Source: a virus. From it: DNA of 56,407 nucleotides. The translations under genes were made by a program, and so were the position numbers. Location: positions 1-56,407 of the IMG/VR virus record IMGVR_UViG_3300046001_003061; one strand, 5' to 3'. The notes beneath the pieces are model-generated. The model made no database searches and had not been told where the DNA came from. It saw only the letters and a program-made list of their open reading frames with translations. Each line of letters begins with the position of its first letter. Within the stretch, counting starts at the first letter, position 1. This document shows positions 16,230-33,771 of the stretch, one piece after another.

Positions 16230-16644
16230 CTAGTTGCTCTACTTCAATCCCCGAAGATTTAAGGAAATTAATCCCGGAATTATCGCGATAAGCATTAGCA
16301 TAGAATACTCGTTTAATACCACTCTGATATATGAGCTTGGCACAATCCAAGCAAGGACTATGAGTAACAAATAAATCAGCATCAAGACCAGACTCAGTAC
16401 TTCTAGCCAATTTCGCAAGTGCGTTAGTTTCTGCATGTAATACCTCCGGTCTAGTTTTAATATTTCCATCTTCTAAATCATATTCACAGTTGTTGTCCCA
16501 TCCACTGGGCATACCGTTGTAGCCAATTGATACAATTCTATCATCTTTAACTACAAGTGCGCCCACTTTAAGTCTACGTGCTGTGCTTAGTTCAGCGTAG
16601 ATATGTGCGGCTCGCATGTGTGCTGTTTGGTGTTTAGGCTTCAT
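16222..16644 (-). CDS. Deoxycytidylate deaminase-like protein (CMP/dCMP deaminase family)
   Basis: 140 residues. The zinc site is complete: H70-A-E72 with the proton-shuttling Glu, and PCLDC with C98 and C101. The N-terminal VGALVVKDDRIVSIGYNGMPSGWDN pattern and the length match phage and bacterial dCMP deaminases. dCMP deaminase makes dUMP, the substrate of the thymidylate synthase at 7008, so a role in dTTP supply is likely despite its place inside the glycan operon. The start overlaps the end of the P-loop kinase gene by 11 bases. Confidence 0.9.
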   Translation of the reverse strand: MKPKHQTAHMRAAHIYAELSTARRLKVGALVVKDDRIVSIGYNGMPSGWDNNCEYDLEDGNIKTRPEVLHAETNALAKLARSTESGLDADLFVTHSPCLDCAKLIYQSGIKRVFYANAYRDNSGINFLKSSGIEVEQLDV

Positions 16645-17035
16645 TTATTTCCTTGGCAATAATAGCTGCCCAACGTGCGGCATCTTGTTCTGTTACCCGT
16701 ATATCGTAATGCTCCGGTGGCTCAAATACTTTATTTGTATCTTCGAATCTACCTAGTTTAATTGTATCTATCCATACAACATAGTCAGCATCAAAGATAT
16801 CACGTATCTCTTTGGTAGGAGCAACAAAGTCACATACAATGTGACCGTTGCTGTCATCGGCTAACTTTTTCATACGTGTTGCCTGACGTAGTCTGCCTTC
16901 TTCAGAAAAATCCCAATCATTATACTTGCTTCTAACTGCATCAGCATTGTACCATATACAATCTATCAATGTTGATAATGCATGTGCTAGTGTAGTTTTA
17001 CCCGAGCCTGGCAGACCACAAATTAATATTCTCAT
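16634..17035 (-). CDS. Small P-loop kinase, adenylylsulfate-kinase-like
   Basis: 133 residues. Walker A GLPGSGKTT lies at residues 7-15. WYNADAVRSKYNDWDFSEEGRLRQATRM and VCDFVAPTKEIRDIF resemble APS kinase (CysC), with the last segment in place of the usual FISPFRxxR. At 133 residues it is shorter than typical CysC (about 170-200). Possible substrates are adenylylsulfate, another nucleotide or a sugar; the sequence does not decide. It overlaps the carbamoyltransferase gene upstream (4 bases) and the deaminase gene downstream (11 bases). Confidence 0.75.
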   Translation of the reverse strand: MRILICGLPGSGKTTLAHALSTLIDCIWYNADAVRSKYNDWDFSEEGRLRQATRMKKLADDSNGHIVCDFVAPTKEIRDIFDADYVVWIDTIKLGRFEDTNKVFEPPEHYDIRVTEQDAARWAAIIAKEINEA

Positions 17036-18531
17036 GATAAAACACGAACTCCGTATAATTCTTCAAAGCGATCTGCGTCAGCGCGATCATTTACCATGGG
17101 CTCGCCTCTGATGTTTAAACTTGTATTAAGCAACATCGGGCAACCCGTCCAAGTATACCATAAGCATAATAGTTCACGTATACCACTGCCATCTCGTGGA
17201 ACAGTCTGTACTCGACTTGTACCATCAACATGTATTATAGCAGGAAATTCATCAGGACGCAAGCATTTTGCAGTTGTCTGCATATATCTGCTTGTGGCAA
17301 AGCCGTTGGGCATTTCAAAATATTCATCGGCGAATTCTTCAAGTATGATAGGAGCAAAAGGTCTAAACTTTTGTCTATGTTTAATTAAGTTAACTCGATC
17401 TTTAATATCATGACCGCGCGGGTCCGCCAATAGGCTACGATTACCCAATGCTCTTGGTCCAAATTCTGCACGACCGCTAGCAACACCAACGATCTTATTG
17501 GTCATTAATTCGGAGACAACATCGGTGACAGGATAAGGGCCACTAATATTATGGCCAAGAAAAGCATTATTCCAATTAAGTCGACCCCCGTGTGCCAAGG
17601 CCGCCGCTCCAAGGCTGCTACCAGCATCACCAGGATTAGGCATAATCCATATTTCATCAAAGTATTCTCCCAAGTCTCTATTAGCACTACAATTAAGAGC
17701 AACGCCACCAGCATATACTAAATTACGGTTAGGTGCTAACTTCATTGCCTTGTACATAATATTATGTATCAATTGTTCCGCTAATGTCTGAGCTGCCGCG
17801 GCAATTTCGAAGTCGTTCCAGCGAGCTCGCATGTCATTCTCGGGCAGGCCGATATGTAGATTGTGTTTTAATGTCAGATCAAACTCGTGATCAACTAACC
17901 AATTAGAAAGTTCGTCACTCAATCGTCCTGTATTTTTTTGTGCCCAACCAGCCATGCCCATTAGAATGTATTCTTCGTCTAAGGGTTTAAGTCCAACTTC
18001 TTTGGTAAACGCACTGTACATCAAGCCGATACTGTGTGGGTATAATTGGCGCCATACTCTTGTATATTGTGCCTTACCATTGACATACTTTGCTGTCCAA
18101 ATACTAATAGTGTCCCACTCACCGATAGCATCAATTACCACAACTGTTGCATTGTCAAACGGACTTGTTTGAAAGCCTGCGGCCGCATGACTTAAATGAT
18201 GATTGTATGTTTTAAGTGGAATGTCTCGATGATTGAACCACGGTGCAGCCTTGGAAATCATATTGCGTACACTCCAGCCTTTGGTTAGCTCACTGTATTG
18301 GCCAGCGTAGAGTTGACGTGTCTTCTTAACCCAAGGTCTTTCATAGTAGGCTATTTGATGTGGATATGCACCCGATTCTAAAATTGCATCTGCTAGTAAA
18401 CTTGAACATAAGTTTGGGTCATGTTTAATTTTGCTGTAGCGTTCACTATGCCCAGCAAATACAATTTCGTCATTTTGAATGACTGTTACAGCTGCGTCAT
18501 GAAACCCAGCCGAGATGCCTAATATATTCAT
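17032..18531 (-). CDS. NodU/CmcH-type carbamoyltransferase
   Basis: 499 residues. The N-terminal Kae1-like domain opens ILGISAGFHDAAVTVI and has ERYSKIKHDP, the HHLSHAAAGF metal/nucleotide site (residues 111-120) and VVIDAIGEWD. The C-terminal domain has GRAEFGPRALGNRSLLADPR and FRPFAPIILEE, both hallmark segments. These enzymes form carbamoyl-adenylate from carbamoyl phosphate and ATP and transfer the carbamoyl group to a hydroxyl on a sugar or antibiotic. No membrane segment is seen. The context (glycosyltransferases, SGNH, sugar-nucleotide genes) points to a glycan acceptor. Its first 35 bases overlap the upstream SGNH gene. Confidence 0.93.
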   Translation of the reverse strand: MNILGISAGFHDAAVTVIQNDEIVFAGHSERYSKIKHDPNLCSSLLADAILESGAYPHQIAYYERPWVKKTRQLYAGQYSELTKGWSVRNMISKAAPWFNHRDIPLKTYNHHLSHAAAGFQTSPFDNATVVVIDAIGEWDTISIWTAKYVNGKAQYTRVWRQLYPHSIGLMYSAFTKEVGLKPLDEEYILMGMAGWAQKNTGRLSDELSNWLVDHEFDLTLKHNLHIGLPENDMRARWNDFEIAAAAQTLAEQLIHNIMYKAMKLAPNRNLVYAGGVALNCSANRDLGEYFDEIWIMPNPGDAGSSLGAAALAHGGRLNWNNAFLGHNISGPYPVTDVVSELMTNKIVGVASGRAEFGPRALGNRSLLADPRGHDIKDRVNLIKHRQKFRPFAPIILEEFADEYFEMPNGFATSRYMQTTAKCLRPDEFPAIIHVDGTSRVQTVPRDGSGIRELLCLWYTWTGCPMLLNTSLNIRGEPMVNDRADADRFEELYGVRVLS

Positions 18532-19147
18532 AAATTTTATCCGCTACTATTGTATGTCCTGCTGCTAAAAAGTGACCGTTTGGTCCTTTGGGAGTGCCAA
18601 ATGTCCACTCCATCATCGATTCATTTGGCCATCCAATAAAATATTGAGTATCGATTCGATTAATCGTAGATGCAAACTTTTCCATGTATGAATCTTCTGA
18701 TAGTTTATTCCAATTAATCTGCGTATTAAGCATAAGCAATTTTTTGCCTAGGTGATCTGCATAAGTTTGTAATAAAATTATATTCAATAGATATTGTTTA
18801 TACAAATATTCATCGTTGTGGTGACGATTTATATAATTTAACAACTCCATTCTATATGCAATATTATTAGTAAACGCCACGCCACGATGTCCGGGCCATG
18901 TATCAAAAATGCCATGCTCGTCGGCAAATTCAATACGGGCAAAATGACTCCAGGCGACGATAATTAAATCATAATCTCTAGCATGTTCTACTACATTTCG
19001 AACCATGCTGGTATTACCTGTAGCAGGCTTTCCTAAATTTGTTAACTCACAGGATAACTTATTTTGTAATACATACGGCCATGCCTGCTGAATATCAACT
19101 AGTTCATCGCCGTAGGTAAAGCTATCGCCAATGGTTAATATTCGCAT
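18497..19147 (-). CDS. SGNH/GDSL-like hydrolase
   Basis: 216 residues. The N-terminal block is ILTIGDSFTYGDEL with nucleophile S9. The second block has Gly in LGKPATGNTSMVRN, and an Asn/Trp-containing strand IIVAWSHFARIEF follows. The C-terminal His block is GPNGHFLAAGHTIVADKI (H192, H198), but no Asp lies three residues before either His, so a dyad rather than a classical triad is possible. It likely edits acyl groups on a glycan. The start overlaps the stop of the 33-residue ORF (TAATG) and the 3' end overlaps the carbamoyltransferase start. Confidence 0.8.
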   Translation of the reverse strand: MRILTIGDSFTYGDELVDIQQAWPYVLQNKLSCELTNLGKPATGNTSMVRNVVEHARDYDLIIVAWSHFARIEFADEHGIFDTWPGHRGVAFTNNIAYRMELLNYINRHHNDEYLYKQYLLNIILLQTYADHLGKKLLMLNTQINWNKLSEDSYMEKFASTINRIDTQYFIGWPNESMMEWTFGTPKGPNGHFLAAGHTIVADKIYEYIRHLGWVS

Positions 19148-19248
19148 TACTTATAGATAAATGGATCACGCTTACGTAATGCTTTTAATTTTTTACGATA
19201 AGTTATTTCTAATTTAATTCTGTTATATAAAGTCTTTAACCAATTCAT
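19147..19248 (-). CDS. 33-residue very basic peptide, possible new small gene
   Basis: Read on the minus strand from ATG 19248, 33 codons end in TAA that shares its bases with the ATG of the downstream SGNH gene (TAATG). The upstream end overlaps the last 26 bases of the 272-residue SGNH gene, and GGAGA lies a few bases before the start. This fills the only apparent gap in the operon exactly. The peptide has about 11 Lys/Arg, a Trp and three Tyr, an amphipathic helix (YNRIKLEITYRKKLKALRK) and a C-terminal DPFIYK. I have seen similar DPFIYK-ending small proteins in marine phage sequences, from memory only. Possible roles: precursor or cofactor peptide for the radical SAM enzymes, or a membrane- or RNA-binding peptide. 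Confidence 0.62.
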   Translation of the reverse strand: MNWLKTLYNRIKLEITYRKKLKALRKRDPFIYK

Positions 19249-20041
19249 TGTAGTTCTCCCGAATATACTTTGCAGCATCAATGTGCGCTGGTTCTAATGG
19301 ATGAGTTGTGGCAAATGGATATTTAAAATCTCGAGCCCATGTAAAAAATCCTTGATTATTCGGAAAGGTTGCCCATCGATCGAAATCAAGTTGATTATAC
19401 AATGTTATTATATTTTCATCATTCATTAGATATGTACAGTTATTTAACAATGCTTCATCAACCATGGAAAATATATATGGTATCTTTTTTAACTGTAGGT
19501 ATTGCTGTAACATAATTATTTCTACTAGTGAATTGTATGTTTCCCAATAGGCAGTTGAACCAACATGTTTGTAAAATGTTTTAGCAAAATCTGCTGTGCC
19601 TGTTTGTTTGGCTCGTAGCAAATGATTAGTATGATGTTGTAATATTGTTGTATTATCAGTTTTAAATTCTTTTTTTATGTCTTCTACATTATCTATTATA
19701 GACCAAGGGTTTAAATTATACCAGTTACCCCATCGTTCTCCTGTGTTATAATCAAATCTAAATTCGTATCTACCAGGAAATGTCCATGTTACTATTACCA
19801 ACCCTACGTCTAACAGACTTTCACAGCTATTCATTACAGTACGTCGAATTGCACTGTTACTAAATCCCGGGTAGGCTGCACATTCATAGTGCATACCAAA
19901 GTCTCGAGCTAGTAGTGCAGGAAAAGTACTCTGACTGACAATCGGGTATGCTGGTTCTGTACCGTTAGGGTCATGTGGCGACACTCCATCAGCAAGTTCA
20001 CTACCATAGGTAAAACTATCGCCGCCGGATAATAAAATCAT
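19223..20041 (-). CDS. SGNH/GDSL-like hydrolase
   Basis: 272 residues. It opens ILLSGGDSFTYGSELADGVSP with nucleophile S9. AYPGFSNSAIRRTVMNSC gives the second Gly/Asn block and VIVTWTFPGRYEFRF the third. THPLEPAHIDAAKYI near the C-terminus carries the catalytic-type His. As in the neighbouring SGNH proteins, no Asp precedes that His at the usual place. The middle of the protein contains a long insertion (residues about 100-200) not seen in the 216-residue relative. It starts one base within the preceding gene's stop. Substrate unknown; an acyl-sugar is the best guess from context. Confidence 0.8.
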   Translation of the reverse strand: MILLSGGDSFTYGSELADGVSPHDPNGTEPAYPIVSQSTFPALLARDFGMHYECAAYPGFSNSAIRRTVMNSCESLLDVGLVIVTWTFPGRYEFRFDYNTGERWGNWYNLNPWSIIDNVEDIKKEFKTDNTTILQHHTNHLLRAKQTGTADFAKTFYKHVGSTAYWETYNSLVEIIMLQQYLQLKKIPYIFSMVDEALLNNCTYLMNDENIITLYNQLDFDRWATFPNNQGFFTWARDFKYPFATTHPLEPAHIDAAKYIRENYNELVKDFI

Positions 20042-21141
20042 TAGGCTATTTGTCCTCGTTTAATCTGTAGTATCTGTTGATCTCGATAATCAGAATCTGA
20101 CCAATTATATTCATAAATGGCAGACGCTTGACTAGTTCTCAACTTATATACGTTTAGATGTAGGCCCAGTTGTGACCATATTACATTATGGTCTTGTGAT
20201 CCGAATGTTCGCTGTAGATCAACCTGTCCTACCTGTGGGTGTCCTATAGTTAATGATTTATCGTCGGGGTCGAATCCATTGTCTATTAACCATTGAGTAA
20301 AATCTGCTAATTCTTTTTTCATCCAATCGTACTGGCCCGGACTAATTGCCCATTCAATATCAAAATCACCTGCTGCTTCTGTTTGCGAGCGCATTGCTGA
20401 TGTAGTCAATTCATCAATCCTATGGCCTGCACCGCCTTCATCACGAAAGACTTCATAATGATGTTTGCCAATAGCTTTATTAACTCCTACAAATACGCCG
20501 CCAGCCGGACGATTTAAACTTTCAATTCCAAATAATTCAAAATCGTCCGCGTCTAATACAAAGCGTGGTGCATTTAACCAACACATCAATTGACTAGGAC
20601 GACGCCATTCGGGTGCATGCACAGCTTTGCGCATGCTTAGTACTAGAGATTCGTATTCGTGACATAATAAATTTAACTGTCGGATATGCCATTTTGTACT
20701 GTCATCAGCTTGATTGTAATAACCCGACATGTGACCGCTAACTCCCTGCAGATCTTCGAAATATCTATGTAGTTGATTTAATTTATCGTGTACTAGTTTT
20801 CCGCCTTCGAGAAATTCGCCAATCTCTCCCGGCACTATGGTATTAGCCACCGTGAAATGATCGTTGATATGATAGCCGAGATTTGCCTGATTAATTGCTG
20901 CAATTGATTGATTAATTTGATCAGTTATATATTCTGCATTACGTTCAGATTCAACAAATCCATGAAAACAAAAATTCTTCTCAAGGTGATAGTTCTTTTC
21001 TATTAGATTGTTTAATGCCGATAACCATTTACGGCCGAGCGAACTGTCAAATACATCAATATATACTGTCAGTAATTCTCCTGTTGCATCATTCTTTAGA
21101 TCAATTTCAAGTTGATCAAGCAATGTTTTGGTACCATTCAT
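20041..21141 (-). CDS. Unknown protein in radical SAM block
   Basis: 366 residues, not assigned to any family I can name. The N-terminal LLTVYIDVFDSSLGRKWLSALNNLIEK looks like an alpha/beta start. A helical central region holds FLEGGKLVHDKLNQLHRYFEDLQGVSGHMSGYY and RQLNLLCHEYESLVLSMRKAV. The C-terminal half has FVLDADDFELFG, GGVFVGVNKAIGKHHYEVFRDEGGAGH and QLGLHLNVYKLRTSQ, with several His and acidic residues that could bind metal. No signal peptide or membrane segment is present. It overlaps the upstream radical SAM gene by 26 bases and the SGNH gene by one. A function with the radical SAM enzymes is inferred only from position. Confidence 0.7.
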   Translation of the reverse strand: MNGTKTLLDQLEIDLKNDATGELLTVYIDVFDSSLGRKWLSALNNLIEKNYHLEKNFCFHGFVESERNAEYITDQINQSIAAINQANLGYHINDHFTVANTIVPGEIGEFLEGGKLVHDKLNQLHRYFEDLQGVSGHMSGYYNQADDSTKWHIRQLNLLCHEYESLVLSMRKAVHAPEWRRPSQLMCWLNAPRFVLDADDFELFGIESLNRPAGGVFVGVNKAIGKHHYEVFRDEGGAGHRIDELTTSAMRSQTEAAGDFDIEWAISPGQYDWMKKELADFTQWLIDNGFDPDDKSLTIGHPQVGQVDLQRTFGSQDHNVIWSQLGLHLNVYKLRTSQASAIYEYNWSDSDYRDQQILQIKRGQIA

Positions 21142-22405
21142 ATACAGCCGGTCTCTCTTTTAATATGTCTGCTAGTGTAAGTGTATCATTACGTATACTT
21201 TCTAGTCGTAGCACACGAGCCTTGCCCTCTGCAAGACTTACTTTGTATATATCGGGCCATTGCTCGTCAAACGTTGGTCGTGATTTTAACTGCACAAGTA
21301 TATCCTGCATTGCTCCAGAAGTTTGTGGGATTAGCTCATCTAACCATGGATGTAATAACTCGCGTGGGAGTGCAAGTGGACTAAGGATAATATCAGGGCT
21401 AAAGCTAAAAACAACCTTAGCCAAGATATCTACGTTTTCTTTTTCAGCAAGCTGGGTAATGTTTGTGACTTCAAACATGCCGGGCAGTGTGAGAGTGAAG
21501 TCAATTCGCATTTGGCGTCTGTGACTTGCAATTCTAACTCCTTCACGGAAGTTTGTAAGCCATGAATTATAGTCAAGTCCTGTTCTAATATATTCTCCAA
21601 TTTCTTGCGTACCATCAAGACTTGCACATATCTGCCAATCACGTAGCCCACTAAGAATATCAGTATACAGATTGGCCCCACGGTAAGTGACACGGCTGAG
21701 GTTTGTGTTGTAACGAGCATAGACATTTTTACCATCTCCTAATTCAACAATGCGTCGCATATAACGCCAATGTTGTTCATACATTAGTGGCTCTCCACCT
21801 ACCCAATATACTTCTTCTACTTGATGATTTTCAACAGCTTCAGCAAACTCTTTTTCAATTTGATTGTCTTGGAATGCTGATATTTGATCTCTTATTTCTG
21901 GTAGCATCCAATTATTCTTTGGATTACTCCAGTTGATCATGTTGTGTTGTCTCTGTTCAGTTTCCCATGCGCTAGACAACATATCACCGCACATACGACA
22001 CTTGAAGTTACATAGATTGCTAAATCGATAATCCCAACTGACTGGGCGCATTGTGGTAGCACCGTCTGCGTCTGTTGTGTCCCATATACTATCATACTTA
22101 TGACCAAACATGCTATCAAAATAACTACGGTAAACGGATGTGTTTAACAATTTGTCATTGCACACTTCGCACTCAGGTAGTGTTTCACCTGCCATCATAC
22201 GCTGGCGCACTGACTTCATGTGCTCGCTATTCCAATGTTCTTCAAGTGTAATAGGAATATACTTACCAGTGCCGGCCTTGGTATCTATATACTGTTCAAA
22301 GTTCTGCGCAGGCTCGCGACTAGCACAACACATACGTCGCTCAGTCTGCGGACTAAGATATGTATGTACCCAAGGTGCTAGACAAAGTGTTTGCGGTTTA
22401 TCCAT
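21116..22405 (-). CDS. Radical SAM protein with N-terminal twitch-type cluster region (class A)
   Basis: 429 residues. The radical SAM motif CNFKCRMC gives C132, C136 and C139, and WVGGEPLMYEQH is the usual GGE strand. Before it, C8 (CLAPWV), C26-C27 and the pair C79/C82 (ECEVC) form the N-terminal Cys set of so-called twitch radical SAM proteins, suggesting an auxiliary iron-sulfur cluster. Enzymes with such auxiliary clusters often modify peptides or sugars by hydrogen abstraction. The C-terminal third has no further Cys cluster. It overlaps the upstream radical SAM gene by 8 bases. Substrate unknown. Confidence 0.88.
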   Translation of the reverse strand: MDKPQTLCLAPWVHTYLSPQTERRMCCASREPAQNFEQYIDTKAGTGKYIPITLEEHWNSEHMKSVRQRMMAGETLPECEVCNDKLLNTSVYRSYFDSMFGHKYDSIWDTTDADGATTMRPVSWDYRFSNLCNFKCRMCGDMLSSAWETEQRQHNMINWSNPKNNWMLPEIRDQISAFQDNQIEKEFAEAVENHQVEEVYWVGGEPLMYEQHWRYMRRIVELGDGKNVYARYNTNLSRVTYRGANLYTDILSGLRDWQICASLDGTQEIGEYIRTGLDYNSWLTNFREGVRIASHRRQMRIDFTLTLPGMFEVTNITQLAEKENVDILAKVVFSFSPDIILSPLALPRELLHPWLDELIPQTSGAMQDILVQLKSRPTFDEQWPDIYKVSLAEGKARVLRLESIRNDTLTLADILKERPAVYEWYQNIA

Positions 22406-23483
22406 TTAAATCCCAATTGGGGAATATATCTGCAAATTTTATTTTCGACGTGGTATCTTCAAGTTTGACTTTGTCAGCTAGTTGAGGTAACAATGATTTA
22501 TCATATACCGTAGAGTTAATGATATTAATTATCTGTTGTTTAAGTGGGTGATCAGTTGCTTGATCAATCCAATTAGTTCGTTGTTCGTCGTTTAATACAG
22601 CTAGTGATAAACAAGGATTATTTCCCACAGGAGTTAAAATTACCGTAGGTTTTTTATCTAATACATACTGTGGCAATGTAGAAAACCATGTGAGAAATTC
22701 ATTAAAGCCCCATATACTAACTGCTGTGACAACATAATTTATTACAATATTGTCGGCGGCAGTCATCCATTGTTCGGCTACCTGTTTTGCAATTTTCCAT
22801 TTAATTGGTCTTCTCTGATATTCAAAATATGACCCGGTGCCGTCTATGCTCAGGGTAATCGACAGGATGTCAAATAATTTTAATTTATCTAATAGACTCG
22901 GATCTAATTTACTTGCATTTGTATTTAGACTAATAGAAATATTTTTTGAGATTCCTTTATTAATATAGTAATCTAAAATTTTATAAGTAGATGGATGTAT
23001 AGTCGGTTCGCCACCGAGCAAAGTCAGCGTCTTGATGTTCAAGTACGGTAAATCATCAATGTTATCGTTAGCACGTTGTATAGTATGAATTTTATGAAAT
23101 TTACTATTATGATGCTTTAACCAATTATTTCGTTTGCTACTAGACATACCATTACATATGATACATTCGGCATTACAATAATTGCCTATGTTAATCGACA
23201 ACTGATTAACTTCTGCCGTAGAATATACATCGTCATCAAATGATAGTTTACCACCAGCGGCGGCATTGAAATCAAGTCTTGGGCTAGGCATCGCATGCTG
23301 TTCGTTATGCCAGCAATACTTACAAGCTAGGGCTTGTTCTCCGTCTATAAATGATTGTTTAAGACCTGCTATGTCTGCTTCAGTTTCAATATTAGTAGTA
23401 AAACAACAAGGTGACATTTCACCGATAGGATTAATATACCTATTCATCCATGGTGCTGAACAAAATGTATTAGATGGTGTCAT
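22398..23483 (-). CDS. Radical SAM protein with N-terminal twitch-type cluster region (class A, compact)
   Basis: 361 residues, the shortest of the five. The motif CNAECIIC gives C103, C107 and C110, and LLGGEPTIHPSTYKIL is the GGE strand. The N-terminal set is C8 (FCSAPW), C26-C27 (PCC) and C54/C57 (CKYCW). The spacing between the N-terminal set and the SAM motif is about 30 residues shorter than in its neighbours. It overlaps the 852-residue gene by 14 bases at the start and the 429-residue gene by 8 at the end. Chemistry inferred from the family only. Confidence 0.88.
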   Translation of the reverse strand: MTPSNTFCSAPWMNRYINPIGEMSPCCFTTNIETEADIAGLKQSFIDGEQALACKYCWHNEQHAMPSPRLDFNAAAGGKLSFDDDVYSTAEVNQLSINIGNYCNAECIICNGMSSSKRNNWLKHHNSKFHKIHTIQRANDNIDDLPYLNIKTLTLLGGEPTIHPSTYKILDYYINKGISKNISISLNTNASKLDPSLLDKLKLFDILSITLSIDGTGSYFEYQRRPIKWKIAKQVAEQWMTAADNIVINYVVTAVSIWGFNEFLTWFSTLPQYVLDKKPTVILTPVGNNPCLSLAVLNDEQRTNWIDQATDHPLKQQIINIINSTVYDKSLLPQLADKVKLEDTTSKIKFADIFPNWDLNG

Positions 23484-26028
23484 GATATCCCATTGCTAGT
23501 GCAATTTCTCTATGTGTGGTTAACATGCTTTGATTACGGTATTGATCAGTTTCCTGCATCTTACGTAGGAATTCAGTGCCATCACTGCCCGAGCCGTTTT
23601 CAATAAACTGAATTATTTTATCGATCTCAACACGATGTTTAACTGTGAATGGATAAGCAGTTAATCGATCTATAACTAATCGTTGCGCCGCAGGTGTCAT
23701 ACGGTTAATACACATAACATGTGGGTCATGTAGCATATTAAAATGCACCATGTCAAAATCCTGGGTATTGACCCAATCACATAGTTCAGGTAGATAATAA
23801 ACATTTTGTATGTTCACAGTCATGCAGACCTGTGTGGCAATTAAATCAGTGCGCATGGCATTAAATTTCACAACATTGGCTGTTACTTCTTCCCACACTG
23901 CGCCATAACGTTCATATTCAAAACGTGCTTCGGTGTTGTCAATGCTAACTGCAATTTCAACATTTCTAAATTTACTCCATAGGGCAACTTCTTCATCGTT
24001 AGGATACACAGTGCCGTTGGTATTGTAATGTATATCAATACGACTACTGTAACCGTGCTCCACTGCATAACGCAATAGTTTAAAGTGTTCTTCAATTAAG
24101 AATGGTTCACCACCAGTGAATTCAAAATACTTAATGTTTGGCAGTAGTGCTTTTAAGTTATCCCAAAATATATCATTGTCTCTGGGCCACGTACCTTCTT
24201 GTAGGAACATGTATGCTCCGTGTTGCTTACGGTCATATCCTTCCACGTCTTTATATTTTATAGCTTCGTAGTCAATTTCTTCCTTGGCCCATTTACTACT
24301 GCTCCAACTGCCGCAGATACGACATTTAAGATTACAAATATTACCCAGTTTAAGATCAATGAACCATAGTTGATCAGGTGTATCATTACGCCAGTCTACA
24401 ATAGGATAAAACTCTTTAAGTCTAATTCTACTGTTGATACGTTTACTAACTATACCAGCATCTTCTTCACTCCAACAACGATTACACGTCGCTGGTTTTT
24501 CACCGCGGCGGAATTGTTGGCGCAGGTCCTGCATGTATTCACTATTATAAATCTCAGCCAATGAACTTTCTCTAAGTTTATACGGAGTACCATCACTCTT
24601 GGTAATTTCGTCTTTGGCTAGACAACATGGACGAGCTGTACCCACTGGACTTGCTTCTATACTAACCCAGGGTAACATACAGATATTATCATGCGTCTTG
24701 TTAATGCCTAAATGATCACGCAACTCTTGATACTCAGGGAATACTTCTTCAAAAGTTTCCTTACGCATCTCGTCTGTTTGATCATTGACCTTAAAGAATT
24801 CTTTTAATAAATGACTCTTATCATCTTGATACATAAATGTGATAATAGCTCGATAACCGGACACTGCTCGCTGTAATTGATCCTGTGGTTCTAGCCATGC
24901 AATATGTTCTTCGACTCGTTGCTTAATACGATCTTTAAATTGTATAGGCAACACGTCAATACGATCACGCTCTGGACTCTGTAAAATGTTTACGTTCCAA
25001 TCCTTGGCTTTAATCAGGCCAAGCTCGACCCATTCTTTATGGAATTCTGTTAAATGCCAGGCATTGAGTATACTGACTGTACTACTAACATAAAAGTCAA
25101 CATTGGGGCAAATTTCAATCATTTTGCGACGATTTTCTACTGTTTCTGCCCAGTCTTGACCCTTGCGAATGTATTCTCCACGAAGATATGAATCATCTAA
25201 ACTAGCACCTACACTTACCACATCAAACAGTTTCCAATACTCAAATACCATCTTATCTTTAAGACGCATATGACTAAAGTTTGTGTTATAGACTAGTCTA
25301 ACATGGAACATTTCACGACGCACTAGTTCTTCTAAGATGCGATAGTGTTCTTCCATGATCAGTGGTTCGCCACCAGCAAAGTATATCTGTTCGAGGTACG
25401 GAATATGCTCCTGCATCTGTTCCCACATATCATTTTTATCTTTACCAGAAAACATAATTTGCGGATGATTTAATTTACCAAACAGTTTAGTTTCTTCCGC
25501 AAACCAACTGCTGCTGAACAAGCTACCGCAGGTGCGGCAACTGAAGTTACATAGATTAGAGAAGCGTATGTCATAGTAGCGTAGTTTAAAGTCATCTAAA
25601 CTGCCATCGGCATTAGTTTTATCTGCCAGGGCAATATGATGGCCAAAGTTTTTGTTTTGACTGTTACGCATACTAAAGAACCCGTTGTCTTCTTGTTCGT
25701 AACAACGAGTACATTCTTTACTCGGCTTGTCTTCAAGCATGTTTATGCGCATCTGTTTATATGGAGTGCCGTTCCATACTTCGGCCATGGTGTTTTCTTT
25801 AAAGTTGCCAATTGGCAAATGCATTTCACCCAGACAGCAAGGGTATGCACGACCGTCAGGGATACTGTGCATGTGTGTCCATGGTATCATACAGAAATGT
25901 TTACTTTCTATTAATTTATATGTATGATCTTCTGTTAAATCATCTTCATGTATATACACAGGTTTACGAGTATTGTAATTGTGATTTTTATGATGTACTG
26001 TTAATTTCTTGCTTGGCTCATCGCTCAT
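23470..26028 (-). CDS. Tandem (two-module) twitch-type radical SAM protein
   Basis: 852 residues made of two complete radical SAM modules in one chain. Module 1 has N-terminal Cys C46, C64-C65 and C106/C109, SAM motif C160-C164-C167 (CNFSCRTC) and FAGGEPLIMEEHYRIL. Module 2 has C450, C468-C469 and C515/C518, SAM motif C565-C569-C572 (CNLKCRIC) and FTGGEPFLIEEHFKLL. Both motif sets look intact, so two [4Fe-4S]-SAM sites plus two auxiliary clusters are expected. No internal start or frameshift separates the halves. Duplication and fusion of a class A gene is the simplest origin. The protein overlaps its upstream neighbour by 4 bases. Confidence 0.92.
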   Translation of the reverse strand: MSDEPSKKLTVHHKNHNYNTRKPVYIHEDDLTEDHTYKLIESKHFCMIPWTHMHSIPDGRAYPCCLGEMHLPIGNFKENTMAEVWNGTPYKQMRINMLEDKPSKECTRCYEQEDNGFFSMRNSQNKNFGHHIALADKTNADGSLDDFKLRYYDIRFSNLCNFSCRTCGSLFSSSWFAEETKLFGKLNHPQIMFSGKDKNDMWEQMQEHIPYLEQIYFAGGEPLIMEEHYRILEELVRREMFHVRLVYNTNFSHMRLKDKMVFEYWKLFDVVSVGASLDDSYLRGEYIRKGQDWAETVENRRKMIEICPNVDFYVSSTVSILNAWHLTEFHKEWVELGLIKAKDWNVNILQSPERDRIDVLPIQFKDRIKQRVEEHIAWLEPQDQLQRAVSGYRAIITFMYQDDKSHLLKEFFKVNDQTDEMRKETFEEVFPEYQELRDHLGINKTHDNICMLPWVSIEASPVGTARPCCLAKDEITKSDGTPYKLRESSLAEIYNSEYMQDLRQQFRRGEKPATCNRCWSEEDAGIVSKRINSRIRLKEFYPIVDWRNDTPDQLWFIDLKLGNICNLKCRICGSWSSSKWAKEEIDYEAIKYKDVEGYDRKQHGAYMFLQEGTWPRDNDIFWDNLKALLPNIKYFEFTGGEPFLIEEHFKLLRYAVEHGYSSRIDIHYNTNGTVYPNDEEVALWSKFRNVEIAVSIDNTEARFEYERYGAVWEEVTANVVKFNAMRTDLIATQVCMTVNIQNVYYLPELCDWVNTQDFDMVHFNMLHDPHVMCINRMTPAAQRLVIDRLTAYPFTVKHRVEIDKIIQFIENGSGSDGTEFLRKMQETDQYRNQSMLTTHREIALAMGYHDTI

Positions 26029-27401
26029 AGTGTGTCGTACCAGTCCGCTAATTGTGTAAATGTATATTTAAAGTCTAGACCACGCCGCTGGTCGTATTGC
26101 TGATAAAAGTTCTTAAAGTCACGTTGTAAAATCTCACGTGATAGTGCTCCACTGTGTGGGCTGTCTACAGTCTGTAAGTACTCAATCAATCTAGTCAATT
26201 GATTATATTCAGATTCGTGTAGTTCACTGTGTGCCGCTTCGCCAAATTGTTGTAGGTCTTCGGCCATTTGTTCACGTATCTCCATAGGCAAGATCAACGG
26301 ACTTTGGAAACTAGGGAATCGTAAGATGTTTAGACTAAAGTTAATTGCATCCTTGCCATAAGTGCGTTTAAGTTTTACTATCATCCATAACAAATCAGTA
26401 AGGCTTAGTAAGCATAGAGCATTGATGGTACACATAACATGTAGGCCTCGCAGTTTCTTGCTATCCAATAGATACTGTACATTGCTAACCCATTGATCCC
26501 AATCCAAGCCATCACGTATATACATTGCATGACGGCCCCACGATTCATTGCTAGTGTACAAATCCAATTCGATACCTTGTGTAGCATCTAATAACCTCTC
26601 TAATTTATCTTTCTCAAATCCTAAATTACTATTGATAGCAAGACGTGTAGTACTTTGTCCTTTGTTCTTTTGAAACCATTCTATTAGACGCCAGGTGTAT
26701 CCTGACATTAACGGTTCGCCACCTGTGATGCGCAGTTCTTTTAACGTCTTGTGCAGGTCTGTTTCCCACCATTTGAAGAACGCTTCGACATAAGGATTAA
26801 CTTCATCGAGCTTAAACAATTGATTGCTATCATGAGTATGAGTAAAGTGGTTACGTCCATCCGACACCAAATCGGTGTAGGCACCGTTATTCCGAATGTC
26901 TTTAACCCAAGTAGTGCTAAATGCAGGGTTACAGTAGCTACAAGCAAACTGACAAGTGCGGTCAAAGGCGATTTCCAAAGTCCGGAGGTTAACATCTTGA
27001 TCCGAAGGTAAATTGTATGCATAGTTTAAATCCTCATCGTTATAAATTACAGTTTTGTACACACGATCACTAATAGGAGTTGGTACATCAACCCCATCAT
27101 ACTTAGGATCTTTATACATGTCTTCAATCTTCCAGCAGTATTCGCATCCGCTAGGACGATCACCTACCTGCATCTGTTTACGCTCTAATTTCTTTTGCGG
27201 AGTGTTATGGATAGCACTGGGATTAGTTTTAATTGCTTCTAGGTCAATAGCATGCGGCAATGGGTGATGACAGCTGGTAGTCTGTCCTGACCCTAACCAT
27301 ATAGTAGCGTTATACCATTTAGCCGCGCAGAATGATTCTGACTTAATGTCAATTACTCTGCGCTTATATTCTAAATCTGTTTCGTTAGCTATTTTCGGCA
27401 T
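26025..27401 (-). CDS. Radical SAM protein, class B paralogue 1
   Basis: 458 residues. The SAM motif CQFACSYC gives C150, C154 and C157, and RITGGEPLMSGYTWRLIEWF is the GGE strand. The N-terminal set is C25 (FCAAKW), C44 (SCHHP) and C86/C89 (CEYCW). Unlike class A, the PCC pair is replaced by a single Cys followed by His residues, which may be cluster ligands. An IHNTPQKKLERKQM segment is shared with its neighbour at 27385. An INFSLNILRFPSFQSPLILP stretch follows the barrel. It overlaps the upstream gene by 17 bases. Substrate unknown. Confidence 0.88.
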   Translation of the reverse strand: MPKIANETDLEYKRRVIDIKSESFCAAKWYNATIWLGSGQTTSCHHPLPHAIDLEAIKTNPSAIHNTPQKKLERKQMQVGDRPSGCEYCWKIEDMYKDPKYDGVDVPTPISDRVYKTVIYNDEDLNYAYNLPSDQDVNLRTLEIAFDRTCQFACSYCNPAFSTTWVKDIRNNGAYTDLVSDGRNHFTHTHDSNQLFKLDEVNPYVEAFFKWWETDLHKTLKELRITGGEPLMSGYTWRLIEWFQKNKGQSTTRLAINSNLGFEKDKLERLLDATQGIELDLYTSNESWGRHAMYIRDGLDWDQWVSNVQYLLDSKKLRGLHVMCTINALCLLSLTDLLWMIVKLKRTYGKDAINFSLNILRFPSFQSPLILPMEIREQMAEDLQQFGEAAHSELHESEYNQLTRLIEYLQTVDSPHSGALSREILQRDFKNFYQQYDQRRGLDFKYTFTQLADWYDTL

Positions 27402-28779
27402 GATATTTGCACTCCTGCCAAAACTCTTTCATTTGTGGGAACGTTTCCAAAAATATTAATCCTCTGCGTTTATCGTATTCATTGAAGAACTTATAAAAGT
27501 CTGCTCTTTGTATTGTAACATAGTCTGCGGCAAGTTCGCAACCTTGTTTCATCCATTCAACATTACGTTCCATACGTTGTATTTCATAATCTTTAAAGCC
27601 TTCGAAGTTATCAGCTGTTTCGTCTGCCTGATTTGCTCGCATAAAGGTAACAACATCTTCTAATATGCGAACATAACTTGCTGGTAATATTTGTAAACTT
27701 TGATATGTTGGACTGCGTAACAACGGTGTATCAAACCATACACGTTGATAGGTCGAACTGTATTTTTTACGCATCTCTAATATCGATTCAAGTAATTGTC
27801 GCAATCCTAGTATGTTTAAATTATTCATTGTGATAATAAACGTTAGACTATTGCGATAAGGAATGTCAGTTAGAAATTGATGCGCATAAGACATACATCT
27901 AAAATAATGTAGACCGTCGCGAATATATTCTGCATGCTCGCTGTTGCCTGTGTCTAGGCTAACATACTGCATAAAATGTTCAATGCGTTCACCTTCACAT
28001 AGTTGCTTAACTTTATCTATGTATTTCTTAAACAGATTACTATCCACACTAAAGTTACTGGTTACGTCAACGTGTAGATCACTCTTAGGCAGGGCAAGTA
28101 TGTAATCAAACACACGATGCGTATTCTTATCCATCAGGGGTTCGCCACCCGTCATACGGAAGTGTTTTAAACTGCCGTACAGTTCTGGCCACCAACGCCA
28201 AAATGCTTCTACATAGGGATTTTCCGCACGTACAGGAATAGGCTTACGTCTGCCTTCAAAATGTTCAGGTGCATTGTGTGGAGTGCTAGTAGGATATGCT
28301 CCCCATCGGTCAATATCTTTGCCCCACTCTGTACTATACTGTGGACTGCAATAGCTACAGGCTAGGTTACAGCCGTGACTGAAGTTTACTTCAACATAAC
28401 TTGGTACAACGTCTTGATCCCAAGGTGCATTTACTATAGTTTCGTAGTGTTCAGCTGCCCATGGCTCACCACTACGATAGTGTCTATCACTTAGTTGCTT
28501 ATTGTCTTCTGCACTCCAACAGTAGCTACATTCTGTTGGACGTTGTTGCTCTAACATAAGTTTACGCTGTTGTTTTTTATGTGCTGTATTGTGTAAGGCA
28601 CCCGGGTTAAACACTAGCGGTGCACTATCAATTTCATGTAACGGTGGATGATAGCAACTATTAGTAAGTCCTGTAGGCAAGTGTAGACTTACCTGTTGCC
28701 ATTTAGCCAAGCAGAGTGCAGGACCTAACTTGTCCTTCATTTCTTCTGCCGTTGACATAAAGTCGCTTTTAGTTTTCAT
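27385..28779 (-). CDS. Radical SAM protein, class B paralogue 2
   Basis: 464 residues. The SAM motif CNLACSYC gives C137, C141 and C144, and FRMTGGEPLMDKNTHRVFDYI is the GGE strand. The N-terminal set is C23 (LCLAKW), C42 (SCYHP) and C84/C87 (CSYCW). It shares with the 458-residue protein the ALHNTAHKKQQRKLM segment, NPYVEAFWRWW, RSPTYQSLQILP and the ending pattern FYKFFNEYDKRRGL. The two are therefore an old tandem duplication with full retention of motifs, suggesting distinct but related reactions. It overlaps the upstream gene by 11 bases. Confidence 0.88.
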   Translation of the reverse strand: MKTKSDFMSTAEEMKDKLGPALCLAKWQQVSLHLPTGLTNSCYHPPLHEIDSAPLVFNPGALHNTAHKKQQRKLMLEQQRPTECSYCWSAEDNKQLSDRHYRSGEPWAAEHYETIVNAPWDQDVVPSYVEVNFSHGCNLACSYCSPQYSTEWGKDIDRWGAYPTSTPHNAPEHFEGRRKPIPVRAENPYVEAFWRWWPELYGSLKHFRMTGGEPLMDKNTHRVFDYILALPKSDLHVDVTSNFSVDSNLFKKYIDKVKQLCEGERIEHFMQYVSLDTGNSEHAEYIRDGLHYFRCMSYAHQFLTDIPYRNSLTFIITMNNLNILGLRQLLESILEMRKKYSSTYQRVWFDTPLLRSPTYQSLQILPASYVRILEDVVTFMRANQADETADNFEGFKDYEIQRMERNVEWMKQGCELAADYVTIQRADFYKFFNEYDKRRGLIFLETFPQMKEFWQECKYHAENS

Positions 28780-29734
28780 AATGCGGAATGATTCTTGTAA
28801 CCTGCTTGTTATATTGTTGAGCTATTAATAACTGACGATTATATTCTATAGTGTGTTGCATTTTAATATTTAACTCTACCAACTCTGCTGTTGATAATTT
28901 TGCCAGACGATCAATTAATTCTAAGATAGCAAGATATCGTGCTTTACCATCTGCGTTATCATATAGCTCGGGCCAATATTCATCAAACGTTTTAAATCCT
29001 ATTTGTTTTAAATAGCCAAGATAAAATTTAGATGCCATGACAATAAAAGGTTTTCTACACAATATTGCACGTGCAATCTTTTCAGTAGGATAAAATGTAT
29101 TACCTAAAGTTGTAGCTTCGACTACAATATCTACAAAAATATTTTTGTATAGGTTATTAAGATCACTATTGTAATCGTAACTACCAGTGGTGTACTCGTA
29201 TGCAGGTATAGGTTGAAAATATTGTTCTTTATTTTGCACCAACTGATCTAATTTAGCTGCGCCAGTTATATCCCAGGCAAATAGTTTTTGTATATCAACC
29301 AACTTGCGTGTATCTTCACTGTCTGTATTAAATCTTAATTGTAATAAACTTTTGTCATTATAATGTTGCGCTAAATGGCCTGCAATGCCAACCCGAGGTG
29401 CACTAGGTCTTCCGTAAAAACATCCAAATATTTTTGTTTGATTCCACGTATAGTCATTTGATGTTTTAAATTTTCTAGATTGTTTTAACCAATATGCCCA
29501 ATTAATAACAATTCTATATCTATCGTGGCATTCAACAGCATTAGCAGTGACAATAGTAACTGAGGTAAATGTAAATAAATCGAGTATTGCATACACTCCA
29601 CAAAATTGCAAGCAATGTGATTCTTGATTTACAATTAACTTAATATCTGTATGTTCGTGATCACGGCAGAATTTAATAAATGGAGTAATATTGTGCAACT
29701 GATCATTTTCTAATTGTAGTGTATACGTATTCAT
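28769..29734 (-). CDS. Glycosyltransferase-like protein (GT-B/GT10-like C-terminal motif)
   Basis: 321 residues. The C-terminal half has the pattern FYPTEKIARAILCRKPFIVMASKFYLGYLKQIGFKTFDEYWPELYD. It resembles the donor-binding part of fucosyltransferase-like glycosyltransferases and the common phage TEK...PF...L..GF.TF domain. KIFGCFYGRPSAPR in the middle is also typical of that group. The N-terminal domain is less clear. Glycosyl transfer from a nucleotide sugar is inferred; donor and acceptor are unknown. It overlaps the SGNH gene by four bases (ATGA). Confidence 0.68.
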   Translation of the reverse strand: MNTYTLQLENDQLHNITPFIKFCRDHEHTDIKLIVNQESHCLQFCGVYAILDLFTFTSVTIVTANAVECHDRYRIVINWAYWLKQSRKFKTSNDYTWNQTKIFGCFYGRPSAPRVGIAGHLAQHYNDKSLLQLRFNTDSEDTRKLVDIQKLFAWDITGAAKLDQLVQNKEQYFQPIPAYEYTTGSYDYNSDLNNLYKNIFVDIVVEATTLGNTFYPTEKIARAILCRKPFIVMASKFYLGYLKQIGFKTFDEYWPELYDNADGKARYLAILELIDRLAKLSTAELVELNIKMQHTIEYNRQLLIAQQYNKQVTRIIPHYEN

Positions 29735-30603
29735 TGCAGTTGCTCTAATAGATAATCAGCCCATACTCGATGACCTTCAGCAAGTGGATGATTGATTCCT
29801 CTAAAATAACAGGAGTCTGATACTAATTGTTTTCGTGTCATTGCTGATTCAGTTAATCCACACATCCACTGCAATAATAAAGTTCGATCTATATCTGGTT
29901 TAAATCCAGTAATGATTCCGGGCAGTTTGTCCAATACCCAATGCGACATAATATAACAATGACCGAGATATTCTTGATTAATTATTTGTTCGCTGTATAC
30001 CTGCAGCCAACTTTTAGATAAGATTGTTATAGCTGGATTCATGCCAATAGGATCAACAAAGTTAGTACCCACTATTACTTTAACGTGTTGATATTTTGCA
30101 GCTAATTCAACTATTGAATCCTGTTGTAGTCCATTATGATATTTTATAATAGAATCAAACTTATCAACTGAATCAAATGTTTGGTTACTAAACCACGTGA
30201 CATAATCGTTGTGTTTGTCAAACGGTCCATCGAATGTTCGACATGCTTCGGTAAATGTGCATATGATTATAATATTAGTATAATCCAATTGCGGAATAAG
30301 GGTGTCTAATTCTGTTATTTTATTAATTATATATAAATTACAAGTACCACTCTGTCCCAGGCTTAAGAAGTCGGCACCCAAGTTAGATGCAACGATGTTT
30401 CCATACATCTTGTCTAATCTTTCCTGAGACATTGCATAATCATCTAGACAAATATCAGCACCAAATGTCCAGCTGTCACCAATGGTAACCACTAATGTAT
30501 TTGAATTTCGATCAATGAAATTATATGGATAAACAGGATAAGTTCGCCAAACTTCTGGGATATATGAAAAATACTTTACTAAATTAGTATCGTGTAATCT
30601 CAT
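29731..30603 (-). CDS. SGNH/GDSL-like hydrolase
   Basis: 290 residues. After a 35-residue N-terminal extension, LVVTIGDSWTFGADI gives nucleophile S44. LSLGQSGTCNLYIINKI is the Gly/Asn block, and INHPLAEGHRVWADYLLEQL is the C-terminal His block. No signal peptide is evident; the extension is aromatic and Pro-containing (YIPEVWRTYPVYPYNF). Like the other two SGNH proteins in this operon, it lacks the Asp that normally precedes the His. ATGA overlaps link it to glycosyltransferase-like genes on both sides, supporting acyl modification of a glycan. Confidence 0.8.
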   Translation of the reverse strand: MRLHDTNLVKYFSYIPEVWRTYPVYPYNFIDRNSNTLVVTIGDSWTFGADICLDDYAMSQERLDKMYGNIVASNLGADFLSLGQSGTCNLYIINKITELDTLIPQLDYTNIIIICTFTEACRTFDGPFDKHNDYVTWFSNQTFDSVDKFDSIIKYHNGLQQDSIVELAAKYQHVKVIVGTNFVDPIGMNPAITILSKSWLQVYSEQIINQEYLGHCYIMSHWVLDKLPGIITGFKPDIDRTLLLQWMCGLTESAMTRKQLVSDSCYFRGINHPLAEGHRVWADYLLEQLQ

Positions 30604-31496
30604 TCTCTCGACATTATACCTTTGTTCTTAAATACGCTCTTGTAGTGATGTTTGAAAAATCTACTCTGCGCCGCTGTAAAATGCGGAGCAGGCAATCCTA
30701 ATTTTACACTTAATGTATGTGACATTTCGTTACATTCTTCTACTAGATTTAATACTTTGTTTTGCTCCCAGATACGATTCAGTGCATCAAAGTCCTGTAC
30801 TTCTCTGTAGTCCCAATCCGTAATCATGGTCATATATGTGCCTAGTTTAGCACCATACATAGCCCAGTCACCATTCTCTACATCCATGCCCACATTGTGC
30901 CATATGCTCAAGTGATCATAGTTGCGTGCGTGTACACGTCGCTCAAATTCACCAAGGCTTGGCTTTGTGCCACGATCCAAGCACATCTTAACACCTTCAC
31001 GGAATCCAGCTCGCCAGGCTTGATATGAACTTTGATTTGGGTATGTTGTACTGTAGCAATCATTCATTGCCCAATAGCGTGGGTCAAAGCAAAACTCGAT
31101 AGCTGTATCATCTGCACCATCACTGGCTTCGTGTGTGCGCATGTTGTTGACAAAGTCCTTGGTCCAACAACTCATGCCACCATTGCCGTACATAAGTCCG
31201 TTGATGTGATTACGAGCCTTCCAACGGAATACTACATCTCGATTGGTATCATCCAGTGTAAGTTGCAGGTTGAAGAATTCTGGATCGGGCAAGTTATCGC
31301 CATCTATTAATACAAAGCGTTCGGTGTCGCTGGCAGCCGCCGCGGCTTTGTGGGCAGCATCACTGCCCTTAACCCCATCTACACGTTTAGCCCACGGAAC
31401 CATGTTTTGAATCTTGATCCAAAATTCTTCTTTCTTAGGTTCATCGTAGCTTAGATAGATGCAGGCTAAATCTGCTATATCAACGATTTGTGTCAT
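30600..31496 (-). CDS. Glycosyltransferase-like protein, GT-A-type family, with intact DxD
   Basis: 298 residues. CIYLSYDEPKKEEFWIKIQ, AKRVDGVKGSDAAHKAA and RFVLIDGDNLPDPEFF are in the usual order, with the metal-binding D65-G66-D67. YGNGGMSCWTKDFV and YQAWRAGFREGVKMCLDRG follow. The same domain, with the DGD lost, forms the last third of the 802-residue protein at 13821. GT-A folds use a DxD motif to hold Mg/Mn and the nucleotide sugar, so this copy looks able to catalyse. Donor and acceptor are unknown. It overlaps the SGNH gene by four bases and the 116-residue gene by 17. Confidence 0.72.
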   Translation of the reverse strand: MTQIVDIADLACIYLSYDEPKKEEFWIKIQNMVPWAKRVDGVKGSDAAHKAAAAASDTERFVLIDGDNLPDPEFFNLQLTLDDTNRDVVFRWKARNHINGLMYGNGGMSCWTKDFVNNMRTHEASDGADDTAIEFCFDPRYWAMNDCYSTTYPNQSSYQAWRAGFREGVKMCLDRGTKPSLGEFERRVHARNYDHLSIWHNVGMDVENGDWAMYGAKLGTYMTMITDWDYREVQDFDALNRIWEQNKVLNLVEECNEMSHTLSVKLGLPAPHFTAAQSRFFKHHYKSVFKNKGIMSRE

Positions 31497-31830
31497 AGTA
31501 TTCTATATCCTGATAGGTGTCAGTTGGTTCTATTAGTATTCCTGCATGTTTCTTTACTGTGGCGTAGCCAGTGGTACTACTAGCTAATTGTACACGATAA
31601 CCAGGGTTGTTGTCAATCTTTTTCAGCTTATTATCTACAATTGTATAACGGAAATAGTTGTCATATTCATCTCGACTAACAACAATATAGTTAGTATCCG
31701 TTGGGTGATTGATCATTGTACACATTGTAATGATTCCAAGTTCATCATAGTGCAATCTATATTCTTTAACTTCTTCTACAATGGGTTTGAGCATGGCCAA
31801 TGCTTTTTCAAATTCACTTAAAGAGTTCAT
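31480..31830 (-). CDS. Small phage protein of unknown function
   Basis: 116 residues from the second ATG (31830). The first ATG at 31836 would leave only one base after AAGGAG, whereas the second has a seven-base gap, so the second is preferred. The product has FEKALAMLKPIVEEVKEYRLHYDELG, NYIVVSRDEYDNYFRYTIVDNKLKKID and a C-terminal ending in YYDTNR, a mixed alpha/beta pattern that I recall from other aquatic phage genomes without a function. It overlaps neighbours on both sides by 17 bases. Confidence 0.72.
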   Translation of the reverse strand: MNSLSEFEKALAMLKPIVEEVKEYRLHYDELGIITMCTMINHPTDTNYIVVSRDEYDNYFRYTIVDNKLKKIDNNPGYRVQLASSTTGYATVKKHAGILIEPTDTYQDIEYYDTNR

Positions 31831-33724: not shown

Positions 33725-33739
33725 AATAGTAATTAGCCA

Positions 33740-33771
33740 TAAAAATAGGTAAGTCAAAATAACTTACCTAT
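33740..33771 (-). terminator. Rho-independent terminator after the structural genes
   Basis: Minus-strand RNA from the structural genes meets a perfect ten-pair stem ATAGGTAAGT/ACTTACCTAT with a seven-base loop, followed by TTTTTA. The stem has only four GC pairs, so strength is moderate. It lies between the late structural block and the glycan operon and begins directly after the -10 box of the operon promoter. Confidence 0.78.

Follow-up and report, generated by a model that had tools for sequence, protein, structure and literature searches.

Why a virus should carry a row of radical S-adenosylmethionine (SAM) enzyme genes, and whether such genes serve a single pathway, are the questions raised by IMG/VR record IMGVR_UViG_3300046001_003061. 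The window, meaning the whole 56,407-base stretch that was analyzed and that may be a fragment, contains five neighboring radical SAM open reading frames (ORFs) on the minus strand: A1 (21116-22405, 429 amino acids), A2 (22398-23483, 361), a fused ORF (23470-26028, 852) whose first and second halves are termed A3a and A3b, B1 (26025-27401, 458), and B2 (27385-28779, 464). For the remaining ORFs, the name gives the first base, e.g., g30600. A sequence-only reading of this DNA had proposed a multi-step radical pathway built on six domains. Five of these domains were found to be conserved together and are termed the core, whereas A2 is a lineage-specific extra.

The radical SAM array and its family

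Adjacent ORFs share 4-17 bases, an arrangement like that of a coupled operon. The motif CxxxCxxC occurs six times in the five proteins, twice in the 852-residue protein, and was found in none of 31 further window proteins that were checked (14,288 amino acids). A chance origin was ruled out by shuffling, as 10,000 shuffles of the five proteins gave a mean of 0.02 motifs and a maximum of 2. Downstream of CxxxCxxC, all six domains carry GGEP, a SAM-binding motif. All five proteins scored above the cut-off of 170 bits of the NCBIfam model NF033640 (N_Twi_rSAM), with 285.7 bits for A1, 199.8 bits for A2, 715.3 bits for the fused protein (two domains, A3a at 24721-25905 and A3b at 23503-24690), 286.2 bits for B1, and 273.5 bits for B2. 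A genome-level search with this model, which is of the subfamily type and names no reaction, returned six domains, all above the cut-off. The six complete motifs in five adjacent, overlapping ORFs were thereby confirmed, and the suggested profile search placed all five proteins in a twitch-domain radical SAM family. A3a and A3b are separate genes in most relatives seen; 31 fused ORFs were present among the loci collected.

A set of four cysteines precedes CxxxCxxC in each of the six domains. It consists of Cys, then Cys-Cys (class A) or Cys-His-His / Cys-Tyr-His (class B), and then Cys-x-x-Cys. In alignments pre-filtered by length, this set and CxxxCxxC were invariant or nearly so among 120-136 rows per core orthologue, and both were kept in 11/11 rows of A2, so that the N-terminal set claimed from the single sequence holds for the relatives as well. 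Judged by sequence, its conservation would fit one auxiliary cluster per domain. One working enzyme accompanied by degenerate copies was ruled out, the motifs being conserved across all orthologue groups. The two subclasses were recovered as clades (for class B, B1 and B2 together, support 99), but A2, which has the Cys-Cys pair of class A, branched outside the other class A rows, on a long branch that leaves its placement unsure. Likewise, the description of class B as Cys followed by His applies to the 458-residue protein (C44-H45-H46) but not to the 464-residue protein (C42-Y43-H44).

In classical SPASM/twitch radical SAM enzymes, the domain for the auxiliary cluster follows the radical SAM domain on its C-terminal side. 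The window proteins differ from them in that the Cys sets are N-terminal in 6/6 domains, and the Pfam SPASM match of the 852-residue protein lies at residues 46-110. By the curated cut-off all six domains belong to N_Twi_rSAM; the window differs from the general family in having five fixed orthologous types that form one cassette. An AlphaFold model of B2 (predicted local distance difference test, pLDDT, 87.7) shows a radical SAM core, which aligned with SkfB (Z 14.0, root-mean-square deviation (rmsd) 3.5, 226 aligned residues), and with SuiB, BlsE, and DesII (Z 13.2 each); the match to AprD4 was weak (Foldseek E 0.0012). B2 differs from these five enzymes in its N-terminal auxiliary Cys set. 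The alignments start at B2 residues 100-127, and the first 100 residues, being outside most listed matches, are the barely tested part of this comparison.

Co-conservation and orthology of the cassette

IMG/VR relatives numbered 488 for B2 and at least 599 for A1, and the best 80 of each were analyzed. All scans for related loci kept, per query, the 80 best of 488 or of at least 598 relatives, so the counts describe the closer relatives. In the B2-anchored set, which comprised 69 distinct B2 proteins and in which only loci with enough flank were counted, the other core enzymes were present without exception (B1 59/59, A3a 56/56, A3b 54/54, A1 53/53). The same was true of the genes upstream, namely g30600 (64/64), g31480 (63/63), g31814 (61/61), g32662 (60/60), g33407 (60/60), and the fibre-like g33801 (59/59), and almost so of the structural genes g34810 (55/56) and g36108 (54/56) and the partner gene g20041 (50/51). 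On the A1 side, the pooled loci contained the carbamoyltransferase gene in 63/64 and g13821 in 59/60 cases. The pooled counts are partly circular, as they include loci fetched with g30600 and A1, and the B2-anchored counts are given apart from them.

A reverse scan from g30600 yielded 78 new loci, 77 of them with a related radical SAM domain; the exception ends about 1 kb behind g30600. B1 was found in 57/60, A3a in 51/54, A3b in 43/45, and A1 in 22/24 of these loci, all misses falling in three of them (L203, L223, L232). The loci fetched with A1 contained g31480 in 29/33 and g31814 in 9/10 cases.

A second clade was reached with B1 of the metagenome-assembled genome (MAG) contig L252 as query. 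The 80 loci gave 35 and 39 distinct B1 proteins; the remaining loci either repeated others or had no full-length B1, and contigs from the earlier scans account for some of the 39. Among the 35, which are 75-96% identical to the query and represent the second clade, B2 (34/34), A3a (31/31), A1 (31/31), and A3b (29/29) were always present, as were the five upstream genes (32/32 each) and the carbamoyltransferase gene (26/26), while g20041 was found in 0/26. The loci of the other 39 proteins gave B2 35/35, A3a 35/35, A1 31/31, and A3b 30/30, with the upstream five in 34/34 or 35/35, the carbamoyltransferase gene in 27/27, and g20041 in 21/27. We call this second clade marine on the basis of the MAG names of four contigs (L248, L249, L250, L252) and closeness to L252. 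These contigs are taken as misbinned phage DNA because they carry the structural genes of the cassette. Compared with the window, their full-length radical SAM enzymes are about 44-60% identical, and the glycosyltransferase-like, fibre-like, and two structural ORFs and g33407 are 28-39% identical. Two further proteins, both from L252, roughly equal the radical enzymes in conservation, the carbamoyltransferase at 52% and an epimerase at 63%.

In a quickly built maximum-likelihood tree with 135 domains, B1 and B2 came out as single groups (support 99 and 91). A1 formed one group except for one Vibrio phage row, and the cassette rows of A3a and A3b formed groups of their own with a few outlying rows. 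Because of long branches, the positions of the Vibrio and A2 rows are uncertain. Each of the five groups includes the window's clade, the marine MAG contigs, and a bacterium, Bacteriovoracaceae UBA6144 (L256). A joint pathway, as opposed to a local pile-up of genes, is well supported because the order is fixed, the genes are co-conserved in two clades, and the five types are orthologous. The co-conservation with glycan or peptide genes proposed as a check is strong among the relatives sampled, and the phage loci did not show homologues scattered singly without common neighbors. The data show the genes, their intact motifs, their order, co-conservation, and orthology; joint action of the five enzymes, one after another on a single substrate, is inferred, and the chemistry is not well supported.

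In bacterial genomes, N_Twi homologues are also found singly, and large expansions were seen. In a Bdellovibrionia MAG (genome of L268, contig 1, ~745-775 kb, L334-L335), NF033640 gave 33 matches, many of them in a dense array of ~30 kb together with unknown proteins. An Elusimicrobia bin (L264 and other contigs) had 53 scored matches among 114 candidates, many in long ORFs, some with N-termini that look TPR-like by sequence reading. Given such numbers within one genome or bin, and extra radical SAM genes that fill variable slots of the phage loci, one might regard the array as tandem-duplicated paralogues, each with its own accessory role and no pathway. This is highly improbable, as the five orthologous groups arose before the two clades separated and are present almost without exception.

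The L256 contig bears on the substrate. A 23-kb stretch holds eight N_Twi-like ORFs (L256:7297-19293) in which all five phage types are represented. Among these ORFs lies a short ORF with a signal-peptide-like start. The occurrence of all five orthologues together, in a stretch where homologues of the cassette's phage neighbors were not found, would suit enzymes that make a small molecule (a cofactor, lipid, or nucleotide), with the fibre neighbors linked by chance in a late-gene block. Such a role appears quite improbable, given that the same partners are tightly linked in two clades whose enzymes are about 44-60% identical.

Neighboring genes and the candidate substrate

The window resembles the part of a phage genome that serves host recognition; the fragment appears to come from a phage with a contractile-tail baseplate, probably T4-like. 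The structural ORFs, cassette genes, and partner genes given with coordinates below are on the minus strand unless stated otherwise. The structural, glycosyltransferase-like, and radical SAM genes come after a 4504-residue virion structural protein. Two virion structural ORFs (34810-36075 and 36108-37475; phrog_14394) are followed by a fibre-like protein (g33801, 33801-34742), so called by position and composition and a candidate acceptor, which was present in 59/59 and 32/32 loci of the two clades. Neither PDB nor PHROG gave a match for it, and its alignment has no invariant Cys. Next come a small conserved ORF of unknown function (33407-33757; 60/60 B2-anchored and 32/32 second-clade loci), two mutually homologous ORFs resembling glycosyltransferase family 8 (GT8) (31814-32671 and 32662-33438; mutual E 3.7e-11), a second small conserved ORF of unknown function (31480-31836) that recurs in the B2-anchored loci, and a core ORF resembling glycosyltransferase family 2 (GT2) (g30600, 30600-31496), in which DGD is invariant in 25 rows. 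Profiles of g30600 against PDB gave only hits of E 0.08 or higher, taken as unrelated, and those of B2, g20041, and g33801 gave no match.

Between g30600 and B2 lies a variable slot (28769-30603) occupied by g28769 and an SGNH-like ORF, and absent or different in many relatives. Among 120 scanned of 270 distinct slot proteins, 34 matched Radical_SAM, three B12-binding, three class-III aminotransferase, three AMP-binding, and two epimerase families. One of them, an accessory radical SAM protein at L214:8757-10529, weakly matches a B12-binding domain. The motif TEK..PF..GF.TF, which resembles a fucosyltransferase motif, is present in g28769 (28769-29734) and similar proteins (44/120 slot proteins vs 0/888 long ORFs of L248-L333). 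Searched alone against PDB, g28769 gave only hits of E 0.28 or higher, taken as unrelated.

On the other side of the array, g20041 (20041-21141) is a partner conserved in the window's clade. It is followed by two ORFs (18497-19147 and 19223-20041) that we presume to be SGNH-like from a GDS motif; relatives occur in 53/64 and 48/64 loci, and no family match above cut-off was obtained for them. Beyond lie a Nol-like carbamoyltransferase (17032-18531; PF16861, PF02543, phrog_1601) and a multi-domain protein (g13821, 13821-16229), one domain of which is related to g30600 (profile match, E 2.5e-18). The plus strand carries, at 8315-13861, genes of the sugar-nucleotide type by Pfam, namely two epimerases, two DegT aminotransferases, a GFO/IDH protein, and a PIG-L deacetylase. 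Apart from these, the window contains dihydrofolate reductase and thymidylate synthase genes (within 5826-7886) and, at 16222-16644, an ORF that is cytidine/dCMP deaminase-like by its motif.

The reading of these neighbors that we favor, with a probability of about 0.4, is that radical chemistry tailors a glycoconjugate belonging to the tail-fibre apparatus. In this scheme, a glycan would be assembled by the glycosyltransferases, either on the fibre-like protein or on a carrier that ends up in the virion; its sugars would then be modified in turn by the five radical SAM enzymes (by dehydration, deoxygenation, epimerization, or oxidation, for example), and carbamoylation would follow. The virion would end up with an unusual glycoconjugate that may shape adsorption. 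Strong Pfam matches for glycan chemistry were obtained for the carbamoyltransferase, the epimerases, the DegT aminotransferases, and the PIG-L deacetylase. The reading also draws on the co-conservation of the five enzymes with glycosyltransferase-like, fibre-like, and carbamoyltransferase genes in two clades, on other lineages (Vibrio phage K566 and a marine virus, described below) that have related radical SAM ORFs beside glycan genes, on the pelagimyophage clusters, and on the Fe-S genes of the largest records.

Several results weigh against this assignment. The glycosyltransferase labels depend on low-scoring matches: Glyco_tranf_2_3 was matched weakly by 5/25 g30600 homologues (best E 0.0018), the first GT8-like ORF as a profile matched glycogenin weakly (E 0.0097), the second (g32662) matched nothing in PDB, and a scan of 22 members for the GT8 and GT2 assignments gave no glycosyltransferase match. 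The GT8 proteins of Vibrio phage K566, described below, gave no full-length alignment with the window's pair. In the 23-kb stretch of L256, homologues of the phage fibre-like or glycosyltransferase-like genes were not found; a PF00535 glycosyltransferase ~6 kb from it is unrelated. The neighbors of bacterial N_Twi genes (103 proteins from 12 of 79 loci, a subset of 135 neighbors listed for 14 loci) showed neither glycan enrichment nor a common theme among the first 25 of 162 Pfam families, although distant relatives of the window carbamoyltransferase (28-31% identity) do occur in 5/79 bacterial loci (L267, L268, L279, L283, L284). The structure of B2 does not single out sugar chemistry, since the peptide maturases SkfB and SuiB are tied within ~1 Z with the sugar enzymes BlsE and DesII. 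Finally, the AlphaFold model of g20041 (pLDDT 85.4) gave nothing below E 0.001 in Foldseek and, in VIA, matched cyclophilins at a modest level (best Z 8.8, rmsd 3.4, 146 aligned residues; just above the tool's common-arrangement warning level); this predicted cyclophilin-like partner hints at a peptide substrate. The probability of the glycan reading is held at this level because the bacterial neighbors, L256, and the peptide-side evidence count against it.

The latter evidence bears on a different proposal, that the radical SAM enzymes modify the polypeptide of the fibre-like or another virion protein by cross-links, epimerizations, or side-chain oxidations, as do maturases of ribosomally synthesized and post-translationally modified peptides (RiPPs). 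Peptides are the substrates of many SPASM/twitch enzymes, the best structural matches include SkfB and SuiB, the fibre-like ORF is constant in both clades, and the cyclophilin-like partner belongs to the window's clade. RiPP maturation systems have a small precursor peptide gene beside the maturase; the small conserved ORFs upstream of the radical SAM genes encode 116 and 118 residues. We nevertheless consider peptide modification rather unlikely, as the firmly named neighbors are sugar enzymes, the fibre-like protein is without an invariant Cys, and a bacterial contig, L256, has the five orthologues but no fibre-like protein within the stretch analyzed.

If sugars are the substrate, they need not belong to the virion. 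For pelagimyophage GT8 genes, remodeling of the host surface polysaccharide has been proposed (PMC7029224), and a pathway acting on the host surface during infection, for superinfection exclusion or receptor change, would agree with that proposal and with the adjoining sugar-nucleotide genes. This explanation is unlikely, because the position of the cassette right after the structural genes and the fibre-like protein in every eligible locus point to the virion, although position alone is not decisive.

Related phages and implications

Searches by tblastn against 50,697 phage-collection records gave no match for B2 (E 1e-5) or for g30600, g20041, g33801, the marine g33801, and g31814 (E 1e-3). 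The 852-residue protein matched six records (five Vibrio phages and one marine virus) and A1 matched 36 Vibrio phage records, at 22-26% identity. In Vibrio phage K566 (L167, 12231-23199), four related radical SAM ORFs are interspersed with three others of glycosyltransferase type (two GT8, one weakly GT4-like), and a fifth radical SAM ORF lies further off. The KVP40-like Vibrio phages thus resemble the window in having ORFs that match a profile built from relatives of its radical SAM proteins, five in K566, there beside GT8, and three in phi-pp2; they differ in the low identity of about 22-24% and in the missing tblastn matches of g30600, g20041, g33801, and g31814. In the marine virus AG-345-D19, a related radical SAM ORF that is truncated at the end of the record adjoins SGNH-like ORFs and a carbamoyltransferase.

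Published accounts show that richness in radical SAM genes is known. The T4-like marine virus TARA_ERS488813_N000010 has 12 radical SAM genes plus Fe-S related genes (PMC5332604); it shares with the window the many radical SAM genes and the T4-like genome but, compared by description, is given as a count without gene order, orthology, or pathway. Pelagimyophages carry glycosyltransferases, most often GT8, and radical SAM cassettes near the fibres in host recognition clusters (PMC7029224). This variable island, placed between VrlC and gp14, is similar in content but is called nonsyntenic, whereas the window cassette is a recurring block of 11 conserved genes. The Aeromonas giant phage 332-Vera has eight radical SAM genes in a structural cluster that also contains five tail fibre genes (PMC12390700), a similar setting in a phage that differs in belonging to the Chimallinviridae, again compared by description. 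Radical SAM and glycosyltransferase genes were prevalent in Tasman Sea phage samples (PMC7150976), and the excerpt of PMC9301287 holds a remark on one annotated gene only. The statement in the sequence-only reading that no described phage pathway uses this many such enzymes has to be narrowed: phages with more radical SAM genes are published, and the excerpts assign no pathway to them. Among the open-licence papers listed by searches, we recognized no description of an ordered five-enzyme radical SAM cassette. What would be new is the ordered cassette of five orthologous enzymes with fixed partners.

Thirty virus records >100 kb, picked from the collected loci, were searched with NF033640 at E 0.001. 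They gave 5-15 matches each, some of which may not be N_Twi enzymes, as the same search gave below-cut-off matches in 14/14 control genomes. IscU was found in 8/30 records (in two of the eight as a match split into two pieces) and an A-type iron-sulfur (Fe-S) carrier in 11/30; among the nine records >300 kb, the numbers were 8/9 and 6/9. Neither was found in L008 (177,658 bases), a possibly incomplete record that, after rounding, matches the window at 100% identity in its cassette proteins.

The most far-reaching form of the glycoconjugate reading is that viruses encode five consecutive radical SAM reactions which install a hitherto unseen modification on a tail-fibre glycoconjugate, in two phage clades and with an enzyme set shared with a Bdellovibrionota bacterium. 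We regard it as doubtful. To our knowledge, radical SAM pathways rarely need more than three such enzymes. A fixed set of five in many uncultured phages, most of whose largest records also bring genes for Fe-S assembly, would mean that viruses carry out lengthy oxygen-sensitive chemistry, possibly at the virion surface. A five-enzyme pathway might also explain the reports of radical SAM genes beside phage fibre genes, for which the cassette offers a defined gene set together with a candidate acceptor.

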